A stretch of DNA of 64,000 bases from Oceanospirillaceae bacterium (lineage in GTDB: Bacteria > Pseudomonadota > Gammaproteobacteria > Pseudomonadales > Balneatricaceae). The notes beneath the pieces are model-generated. The model was not told where the DNA came from, ran no database searches, and saw only the letters and a list, made by a program, of their open reading frames with translations. Location: contig JABSQZ010000001.1 of the NCBI GenBank assembly GCA_013215505.1, forward strand, positions 310,001 to 374,000, in the 5' to 3' direction. Both the position numbers and the translations under genes were made by a program. Below are positions 19,966-24,112 of the stretch, one piece after another (position 1 is the stretch's first letter; every line of letters begins with the position of its first letter).

Positions 19966-21039
19966 CTAAGGCCTTAGGTTTAACTGTAGATGCATTGTTT
20001 GTTCGTGATCAAGTAGCCACTGCTTGCGCTCCAACCCGCCGCCGTAACCAGTTAATTTGCCATTCTTTGCTATCACTCTGTGGCAGGGAATAACAATGGC
20101 AATACGGTTGGCGCCATTGGCGACCGCAACTGCTCGCACTGCTTTTTCATTATCAATATCTTTTGCTAACTGCTGATAAGAGGTCGTTTGTCCACAAACT
20201 ATGCCCTGTAATTTCTCCCAGACCGTCTGTTGAAAAGCTGTGCCCGGGGTATGTAATTTTAAGGAAAAAGCGCGGCGCTGCCCTAAAAAATATTCTGCCA
20301 ACTGCTTTTTTAGCTGCCTGATATGAGAGTTTTCAGCGGCGATTATCTTCGCCTTCAAGCGCTGTTGCAGGTCTTTAAATTCGCTCTCCAGCTTTACTCT
20401 ATCGACAAATTCCAGCAGGCAAATCCCCTGCTCAGTAGCGCAGGCAAACATCGGCCCCAGCGGCGTAGTCAACCGACTAATCAGGATGATAGCGTTTTGC
20501 TGGCTATTGCCCGGCGATTCCCCCAACAATTTTTTGTAGGTATAAGCAAAGCCACTGAGTGATTCATAGCCCGCATCAAACGCTGTATCTGTGGTGTTTC
20601 TGCCGCTTTTTAATTCAATCAGGGCATTATTAATCCGATACATGCGCTGATACGCCTGGAAGGTCATCGCATAGCTTTTATTGAACCAGCGGCGTACTAG
20701 CGCGGGGCTGATAGCCAATTGTTTTAAATCATAGTCAGTAATTTTTTGTTTGGGGTTATCTTTCACCAACTTGATTGCCGCCTCCACAGCTGCGGGGGCC
20801 TGGTTGGCGTTTTGTGTAGGTTTGCAAATTTTACAGGGACGGTAGCCATTCGCCAATGCCTCTTTAAAGGAGGTGTAAAATTCAACATTTTGCCGTTTTG
20901 GTTTTCTGGCCCGACAAGTGGCGATGCAAAATACCGAGGTGGTTTTCACCCCAACGTAAAAGATTCCCACATAGCTACTCTTGCGATCCAGCAGTGCCTG
21001 ATAGTAGTCATCGATGGTTTTTTGTTCAGTAATTAACAT
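19966..21039 (-). CDS. ada: Bifunctional methyl-DNA repair protein and regulator Ada
   Basis: Adaptive-response protein that repairs methylphosphotriesters and O6-methylguanine and activates transcription when methylated. 357 residues in the canonical order: zinc domain with Cys38, Cys42, Cys69 and Cys72 (same numbers as E. coli Ada), AraC-type helix-turn-helix about 90-180, and a C-terminal methyltransferase domain with the acceptor Cys319 in IPCHRV. All catalytic Cys residues are present. No alkB or aidB neighbour is seen. Confidence 0.95.
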   Translation of the reverse strand: MLITEQKTIDDYYQALLDRKSSYVGIFYVGVKTTSVFCIATCRARKPKRQNVEFYTSFKEALANGYRPCKICKPTQNANQAPAAVEAAIKLVKDNPKQKITDYDLKQLAISPALVRRWFNKSYAMTFQAYQRMYRINNALIELKSGRNTTDTAFDAGYESLSGFAYTYKKLLGESPGNSQQNAIILISRLTTPLGPMFACATEQGICLLEFVDRVKLESEFKDLQQRLKAKIIAAENSHIRQLKKQLAEYFLGQRRAFSLKLHTPGTAFQQTVWEKLQGIVCGQTTSYQQLAKDIDNEKAVRAVAVANGANRIAIVIPCHRVIAKNGKLTGYGGGLERKQWLLDHEQTMHLQLNLRP

Positions 21040-22732: not shown

Positions 22733-22987
22733 TTATTCAGATTCAACATTATTATCTTGGTCTATGGATCTTTTATGCGCCTCTACAATAATTCTTTTAT
22801 TGAGAATGCGTACTTCACCCACCATTAATAAACGCATATCTTCGATAAGATAATTCCCCAGCGACTGATCGCTTATTTGTGACCCTTGAATATCTAACCT
22901 AAATCCTTGACCTTGAATCCCACCACTGTTGCTAAAGTCTATCTCAAAATCGAACAAGACCCTGTATTGAAGTTGCCTATCTGCCAT
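22733..22987 (-). CDS. Conserved small protein of unknown function
   Basis: An 84-residue acidic protein. The middle part, with GGIQGQGFRLDI, LGNYLIEDMRLLMVG and EVRILNKRII, looks strongly conserved in type and resembles a widespread small family seen from memory in other bacteria, but no function is known to me. There is no signal peptide, membrane segment or Cys motif. It is divergent from the Tus-like gene, so the 240-bp region holding the LexA box and Ter-like sequence may also serve it. Confidence 0.65.
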   Translation of the reverse strand: MADRQLQYRVLFDFEIDFSNSGGIQGQGFRLDIQGSQISDQSLGNYLIEDMRLLMVGEVRILNKRIIVEAHKRSIDQDNNVESE

Positions 22988-23036: not shown

Positions 23037-23138
23037 TAAACTCAGGCAGTTTTTTTAACTAGGACAAAATACGGTCTAAAAGGGACAAATAGTTTTTATC
23101 TGGCACATAAAGCGCTAAAAACTTTACTATTTTTCATA

Positions 23139-23158
23139 TACTGTATATAAATACAGTA
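23139..23158. promoter_or_regulatory. LexA (SOS) box
   Basis: The 20-mer at 23139-23158 differs from the E. coli consensus TACTGTATATATATACAGTA at one position (A for T at position 12), with both CTGT and ACAG half-sites perfect. It ends 69 bp before the Tus-like ATG and is 152 bp from the divergent small gene. SOS control of the Tus-like gene is the simplest reading. Confidence 0.85.
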
Positions 23159-23227
23159 TATATATTTAGCTATAAGAGTTCAGCAGGTTAAGCGCAATTA
23201 TATTGCATACAAAGCAGCGGAGAAATT

Positions 23228-24112
23228 ATGTCCAACAGTCAGCTGGCGCCACTCACATTGACCTTCGAGGCCATGAGCCAGGCTCTGCTAAATTATCATC
23301 AGCTACTTTTGAGCTCAACACTGCCCTTGTGGCTGCCCCTGTCAGAAGTTGAGTGTCAAAGTCATCTGAGTATGCGGGGAAAAGCCTGTGTCCTGACTAC
23401 AGATATTTGGCACAGTGGTGATGGCGATGGCAGAGTAACCCAAAACTGTCACGGCCTGATTGGTGCCAGCACTGAATTAATCACTGCCGCAACTCACTTA
23501 AATCTTTGTAAAGATGCATTTAGGCAGGCACTGGCCGATTTAAAAGATAAAGATCCAAAAAACATCAATTTGTCGCTGCGTGCCCGCAGCCAGAAACTGG
23601 CCCAGATATTAAAGCGCGAGGGCTTATCCAGATTGCATCTTAAGCAGTGTTATAGGCACATACCGATACTTGCACCCGGCTGTCTCAAAGTGCAATTTAG
23701 CTGGTATAGCAGTGGCCGAAGTATCAAGAGAATAACGGTTGAGGAGAGTTTGCAAAAACTGTTAAAGCTCAGTCAGTCCAGCAGCCATATACAAATCCAA
23801 ATTAATAAACTGGGCAACCTGCGCCCAGGTACGGCGCTGGCGCAAGTACAGGCACAAGTACCTATCATGCGTGTCAACGCGGTCTGGCCGTCTGTTGAGC
23901 AAGCCATAGGAGAAAAGCAATGGCTGCGAAAGGCTCGCAATGCCCCGCTGCCGCTCTTAGTACCACTGTCTGCAGGACAGCAACTGCCGAGCTTTAATCA
24001 ACCGCCGCTGCAACCACCAAAAATCAGATTGCGAGCGCTACGCAGTGATGCTTTGATTGAGCCAACCGCACTGCTCCCCAGCTTGAGAGTACATTGTTAT
24101 CGCCAAGCGTAA
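23228..24112 (+). CDS. Tus-family replication-terminus binding protein
   Basis: A 294-residue protein that resembles E. coli Tus (309 residues) over most of its length. Tus binds Ter sites and blocks replication forks from one side. Shared stretches are QCYRHIPIL versus NAYRTLTVL, LKVQFSWYSSGRSIKRITVEE versus LRFGWANKHIIKNLHRDE, and the C-terminal APLPLLVPL and LPSLRVHCY. The residue aligned with Tus His144, in the cytosine pocket, appears to be Arg, so the lock mechanism may differ. A LexA box lies 69 bp upstream. The call rests on recalled alignment and needs a profile search. Confidence 0.72.
   Translation: MSNSQLAPLTLTFEAMSQALLNYHQLLLSSTLPLWLPLSEVECQSHLSMRGKACVLTTDIWHSGDGDGRVTQNCHGLIGASTELITAATHLNLCKDAFRQALADLKDKDPKNINLSLRARSQKLAQILKREGLSRLHLKQCYRHIPILAPGCLKVQFSWYSSGRSIKRITVEESLQKLLKLSQSSSHIQIQINKLGNLRPGTALAQVQAQVPIMRVNAVWPSVEQAIGEKQWLRKARNAPLPLLVPLSAGQQLPSFNQPPLQPPKIRLRALRSDALIEPTALLPSLRVHCYRQA

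Follow-up and report, generated by a model that had tools for sequence, protein, structure and literature searches.

Introduction

The closest described counterpart of the locus reported here is the Tus/Ter fork trap of E. coli and other Enterobacterales (PF05472), in which Phe140 and His144 of Tus are the lock residues. TerB, a site carried on the plus strand just before tus and on the strand of tus itself, lies beyond dif and blocks clockwise forks, the same arrangement as is found here. In Bacillus subtilis the corresponding protein, RTP, is unrelated to Tus. The RTP/Ter system nevertheless works in a similar way, through terminus fork barriers and with an autoregulated gene (PMC10331603).

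The precise function of the fork trap has been called "enigmatic" in one review (PMC4999828). In E. coli, recombination-dependent replication away from oriC follows SOS induction, and re-replication in vitro is held in check by Tus (PMC2764109). The survey of Galli et al. 2019 places resident tus genes in Enterobacteriales, Pseudoalteromonas and Aeromonadales only (PMC6549158). In the open-access papers searched (subscription papers being largely outside the scope) we found no report of an SOS-controlled Tus and nothing joining Tus/Ter with Halomonas; the Ter sequence described below was not found there either, in a text search that letters printed with spaces would escape, and searches for Tus-Ter with marine taxa gave none with Tus-Ter among the matches listed.

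The present locus shares with the E. coli system the fold of the protein, polar sites flanking dif and, in mapped relatives, a gene in the terminus half of the chromosome; some relatives also have a site just before the gene and on its strand, as TerB stands at tus. It differs in the sequence of the protein (20% identity to E. coli Tus), in the lock residues, in the sequence of the Ter site and in its promoter, which carries a LexA box.

Results

A maintained gene behind a conserved SOS box

The window, a stretch of 64,000 nt corresponding to bases 310001-374000 of contig C1 in a draft genome of 5.73 Mb, contains the following features around the gene of interest.

23228..24112, plus strand: Tus-like replication terminator protein, 294 aa (assigned from a conserved family in which relatives match PF05472 remotely, from the Tus fold and from a dN well below dS)
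23139..23158, unstranded: LexA operator (SOS box) TACTGTATATAAATACAGTA, 1 mismatch to the E. coli consensus
23123..23128, plus strand: putative -35 element TTTACT, assigned by eye, kept in 3/3 genomes
23146..23151, plus strand: putative -10 element TATAAA, assigned by eye, 17-bp spacer from the -35, inside the SOS box
23219..23222, plus strand: putative ribosome-binding site GGAG, from sequence, with surroundings conserved in two sister genomes
22733..22987, minus strand: divergent 84-aa ORF, no Pfam match, present only in the three genomes of the genus that bear the Tus-like gene

The reading frame runs from an ATG at 23228 to a stop at 24112, and its closest relatives occur in two 'Osedax' symbiont Rs2 genomes of the same genus (83-84% identity). 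For the three pairs among the window and the two sister copies, dN was 0.07-0.11, far under a dS of 1.0-1.7, indicating that the gene is maintained and that the ORF named in the original prediction is real. The genes around the locus are common to both sister contigs up to the ends of those contigs, and neither the Tus-like gene nor the divergent ORF is present in the remaining four genomes of the genus, which are drafts. An ada-type methylguanine repair gene (window 19966-21039, minus strand), some 2.2 kb away from the Tus-like gene, is also retained on L043, the longer of the two sister contigs.

The SOS box upstream of the gene, also part of the original prediction, withstood scrutiny: 100 shuffles of the window produced no match at up to 3 mismatches, and the whole genome contains 7 boxes at this threshold, whereas the reversed pattern gives none. 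Of the six other boxes, five occur upstream of three umuD-like genes, one umuC-like gene and one dinB-like gene (named from Pfam domains). The box of the Tus-like gene resembles the consensus about as closely as those of the umuD- and dinB-like genes; umuD and dinB act in translesion synthesis, whereas the Tus-like gene encodes a predicted fork barrier. Each of the three umuD-like genes (L124, L125 and L128) has a close box, and a paralogous 274-aa gene is found upstream at two of these loci. The sixth other box (G000:C1:773983-774002, L129; 3 mismatches) lies between ORFs judged by eye to be AraC-like and GGDEF-like, with no clear SOS gene. Two weaker boxes, of 4 mismatches each, accompany lexA. 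The repressor on which the prediction depended is present: the genome encodes an E. coli-type LexA with DNA-binding and S24 domains that is 65% identical to that of E. coli (129/198 aligned positions).

When the three gene-bearing genomes were compared without gaps, 19/20 positions of the box were identical, as compared with 19/60 upstream and 11/60 downstream, and CTTTACT formed a second conserved island. A gapped alignment of the same genomes added weaker patches, ~50-80 bp ahead of the box and at the ribosome-binding site; within the window, a weaker conserved patch upstream of the box (23061-23091) contains two GGACAAA words. The conserved operator overlaps the promoter, whose elements were placed by eye; an automated promoter scan, with a threshold that demands a T ending the -10, listed none.

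The box is carried by 3/3 gene-bearing genomes of the genus and by no other lineage examined. It occurred at 3/30 aligned family loci and in 2/80 of the best 80 stretches (overlapping sets, these two being genomes already among the three), all in this one genus, and was absent from 11/11 distant copies, the best of which had 6 mismatches. SOS control across the whole family was therefore rejected, the box having been seen in one genus and three genomes.

A remote Tus homologue with its own subfamily

Taken alone, the window protein had no match at E<=10 in either Pfam or NCBIfam and lies below the PF05472 cut-off; a PF05472 search of its genome was empty at E<=1e-3, a comparison with PDB sequences gave no related match (one designed protein at E 0.73), and a PDB sequence search with the family profile gave none. 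The original prediction had tied its own survival to a PF05472 match for this protein. The missing match is outweighed by the matches of other family members, by the fold, and by the co-occurrence of the gene with Ter-like sites that are polar about dif.

Members of the family were found in 40/96 genomes, the window's own included; 33 of these had a match at E<1e-40 (hereafter close-gene genomes), seven more had a distant gene only, and 56 were without the gene. A collection of species yielded 284 stretches with a family match, of which the best 80 were kept. PF05472 was matched by 7/30 aligned family members at E<=1 (best 1.6e-7) and NF002810 by 5/30 at E<=1. In whole-genome searches the curated PF05472 cut-off was exceeded in 3/96 genomes (G030, G023 and G093), on a family member only in G030; the match in G023 is a separate full Tus and that in G093 another relative. 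G023 therefore carries a full PF05472 Tus (E 1.1e-46) beside a member of the new subfamily and 9 sites of the new type, and may have two fork-trap proteins side by side.

Profile alignment of the family with E. coli Tus by hhalign gave E 5.4e-5, with a probability of only 66, and the MAFFT alignment of the window protein gave the 20% identity cited above. An AlphaFold2 model of the window protein (pLDDT 85.1, pTM 0.75) recovered four E. coli Tus chains in a fold search (E 4e-13 to 3e-12, TM 0.53-0.62), the only PDB matches at E<=1e-3, with the next match at E 0.34; the predicted model therefore has the Tus fold, as the comparison proposed in the original prediction would have it. The claimed resemblance to Tus thus stands in part: it is borne out by the PF05472 matches of relatives, by hhalign and by the fold, but not by the single sequence, which matches no model. 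The resemblance is real, though too remote to show in one sequence, and we conclude that the window protein is a distant Tus homologue with its own subfamily, outside PF05472 as modelled.

In both the MAFFT and hhalign alignments, Ala125 stands opposite Tus His144 and Ser121 opposite Phe140, positions that are variable in the family; the comparison is one of sequence alignment only, across a 2-residue insertion. An arginine opposite His144, as originally read, was accordingly rejected. The accompanying suggestion that the lock chemistry may differ still holds, neither lock residue being kept, although their loss is no proof that a lock is missing. Tus Arg139 and Gly149 have counterparts in Arg120 and Gly132, invariant in 30 members. 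His137 is likewise unchanged across the 30, and a lock, if there is one, may be made of residues other than those of Tus.

Relatives of the family occur on plasmids in 21 records. Two Halomonas plasmid copies (H1 and H2) carry the annotation "DNA replication terminus site-binding protein", and the records H4-H12 (Vibrio, Pseudomonas and Neptuniibacter; replicons of ~0.17-1.2 Mb) hold distant relatives, called "hypothetical protein" where annotated. A phage origin of the gene was rejected, with no phage record matching.

A candidate Ter site that accompanies the gene

A candidate site emerged from words shared among 80 upstream regions (the best 80 of 284 family stretches), the window being added to give 81: AGATAACGGTATAA lay close to the gene start in 14/81 upstream regions, each time on the strand of the gene, the window not being among the 14. 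We counted the exact pattern KRTAACGGTATAA in genomes, with the reversed pattern as a control. Across 18 genomes, ten of them among the sources of the motif, there were 127 exact sites vs 18 reversed. The 33 close-gene genomes, the window's own included, held 202 sites (median 6; reversed control 22), the seven with a distant gene only held 2 (reversed control 9), and the 56 without the gene held 15 (reversed control 46). At least 3 sites were present in 30/33 close-gene genomes vs 1/56 genomes without the gene (Fisher p 4e-19, a value uncorrected for relatedness, which overstates independence because the genomes are related). The same held inside the window's genus, where three gene bearers had 9, 4 and 6 sites and four genomes without the gene had 0, 0, 1 and 1. 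Exceptions ran in both directions: three close-gene genomes had few exact sites (G039, 1; G089, 2; G092, 0), in which the Ter code may have drifted or the trap may have been lost, and G093 had 3 sites though without a close gene.

The flanks of 40 sites extended the consensus to AAGATAACGGTATAAA, the columns so gained reading A in 29, 37 and 25 of the 40. The underlying logo was drawn from 40/60 sites of six genomes, only those written GATAAC, a choice that fixes its first two core columns. By its distribution, AAGATAACGGTATAAA behaves as a candidate Ter site that the protein would bind. It has no clear unique register on E. coli Ter and does not reproduce the E. coli Ter core; conservation of the C6 base is not claimed, the AG + GTA register giving 6 matches and other registers 7 and 8. 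No Ter-like site at <=2 mismatches was found within the window, and hence none at the promoter of the gene itself; the place that a Ter-like site takes in some relatives is occupied here by LexA control.

Sites are polar about dif

Polarity was examined in eight assemblies with a dif match (the best match being taken), seven of them complete, that carry 4-15 sites each. Every one of their 69 sites obeyed a single rule, with those left of dif on the minus strand and those right of it on the plus strand, and the innermost opposed pair of sites enclosed dif in 8/8 assemblies. In the seven complete assemblies no site was further than 21% of the genome from dif. This count excludes drafts, G064 (4 sites, consistent, dif not found), G097 (sites not searched) and G087 (distant gene only, 0 sites; dif match at 92% of the record, dnaA at its start). 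Draft contigs bearing both strands gave the minus-then-plus order in 7/8 cases of the 18-genome set, the exception being G101:C6, and in 4/4 among the matches listed in the 96-genome count. The gene itself lies 80-874 kb from dif in ten mapped relatives, a distance that does not exceed 17% of the genome in the nine whose length is known.

The window's own genome carries nine exact sites on nine contigs, some of which may be chance occurrences since the reversed control gives 3. GC skew was negative on the strand of the site for 9/9 of them, as the polarity rule requires, and 10/10 sites in the sister genomes followed it as well (skews -0.016 to -0.086). Polar sites flanking the terminus are thus present in eight relatives as judged by dif, and in the own and two sister genomes as judged by GC skew. 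Coding-strand bias, by which most coding bases are expected opposite the strand of the site, fitted 6/9 own-genome sites; 17/23 KOPS-like words at the nine sites pointed in the expected direction and 6 the other way, the wrong direction being the commoner at 3 sites. The cumulative skew of contig C6 has its peak at 77,511, 675 bp from dif at 78,186, and a correctly oriented site follows at 134,946. The Tus-like gene and dif are on separate contigs in this genome; contig C1 was C-rich in 10/10 sampled 20-kb stretches, and the gene and the C1 site therefore probably belong to one arm.

Discussion

Computation established the Tus fold, the sites and their polarity, the co-occurrence of gene and sites, the LexA repressor, and the SOS box with its conservation. 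Given these, we think it very likely that the protein is the terminator of a polar fork trap of Tus/Ter type with its own Ter, AAGATAACGGTATAAA, and that in this genus its gene is controlled by a LexA operator. A Tus-type gene under LexA, as first predicted, remains the best reading of the sequence data, favoured by the relatives, the fold, the polar sites and LexA.

The strongest competing explanation accepts the trap itself and questions only its control: the box might serve mainly the divergent 84-aa gene, with which it may be shared, or LexA might only trim the level of a terminator that is always on, so that termination would not be damage-specific. The divergent ORF occurs in the same three genomes as the Tus-like gene, the sister genomes that bear the gene have retained Ter-like sites, and tus of E. 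coli served as a housekeeping qRT-PCR control in one study (PMC2648988). However, the putative -10 of the Tus-like gene falls inside the box, and a -35 with a 17-bp spacer is conserved on the side of this gene; moreover, the box matches the consensus as closely as do the boxes of this genome's umuD-like genes, which leads us to expect tight repression. We regard this explanation as unlikely, though it deserves to be taken seriously.

Far less probable is that the motif is some other polar terminus element with a distribution independent of the Tus-like protein. E. coli does have polar words that point to the terminus, namely KOPS (PMC2680272), and binding of the motif by the protein is a prediction here; but the motif is uncommon, with 4-15 copies in each of the eight assemblies, lies close to the start of the gene in 14/81 upstream regions, and follows the presence of the gene within the genus. 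We give equally little credence to a Tus-fold DNA-binding protein that regulates transcription or serves plasmids and forms no fork barrier. The plasmid-borne relatives would suit such a role, and the site near the gene start in some relatives suggests self-repression, but gene regulation would not predict sites spread across the terminus half and polar about dif in 69/69 cases. That the Tus resemblance and the SOS box arose by chance, a thought prompted by a protein that alone has no family match, is hardly credible in the face of the shuffles, the genome-wide box count, the PF05472 matches of relatives, the fold, the polarity and the conservation of the box.

For the fork trap under LexA we infer DNA binding, fork arrest, SOS induction and a purpose along the following lines. 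The terminator protein would bind Ter sites, nine exact ones in this genome, on both sides of dif, oriented so that forks would be let into the terminus and not out; the blocked fork would be one that moves 5' to 3' along GATAACGGTATAA. In healthy cells, LexA seated on the operator over the putative -10 would keep the protein scarce. After damage, RecA-stimulated cleavage of LexA would release its synthesis, and forks leaving the terminus would then be blocked. A likely use would be to confine forks initiated or restarted by recombination to the terminus, preventing them from running backward along the arms and over-replicating. Because recombination-dependent replication follows SOS in E. coli and Tus curbs re-replication in vitro (PMC2764109), an SOS switch on the trap would gain a purpose.

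Chromosomal traps of this type also appear in Amphritea, Marinobacterium, Neptuniibacter, Neptunomonas and Halomonas relatives, where they are presumably resident. We consider it somewhat probable, with less assurance than for the trap itself, that the trap is conditional, its Ter sites permanent and its terminator made only on LexA cleavage, and that it represents a Tus subfamily apart from the known one, which has a Ter code of its own and resides in chromosomes of marine Gammaproteobacteria outside the three clades for which the survey reports resident tus. The new Ter code widens the map of fork traps past the clades of Galli et al. 2019, and a trap wired to SOS points to a purpose for fork traps in controlling forks that arise after damage. 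If the trap is indeed conditional, the chromosome would keep an ordinary open terminus while cells grow and have a closed one-way trap once DNA is damaged.
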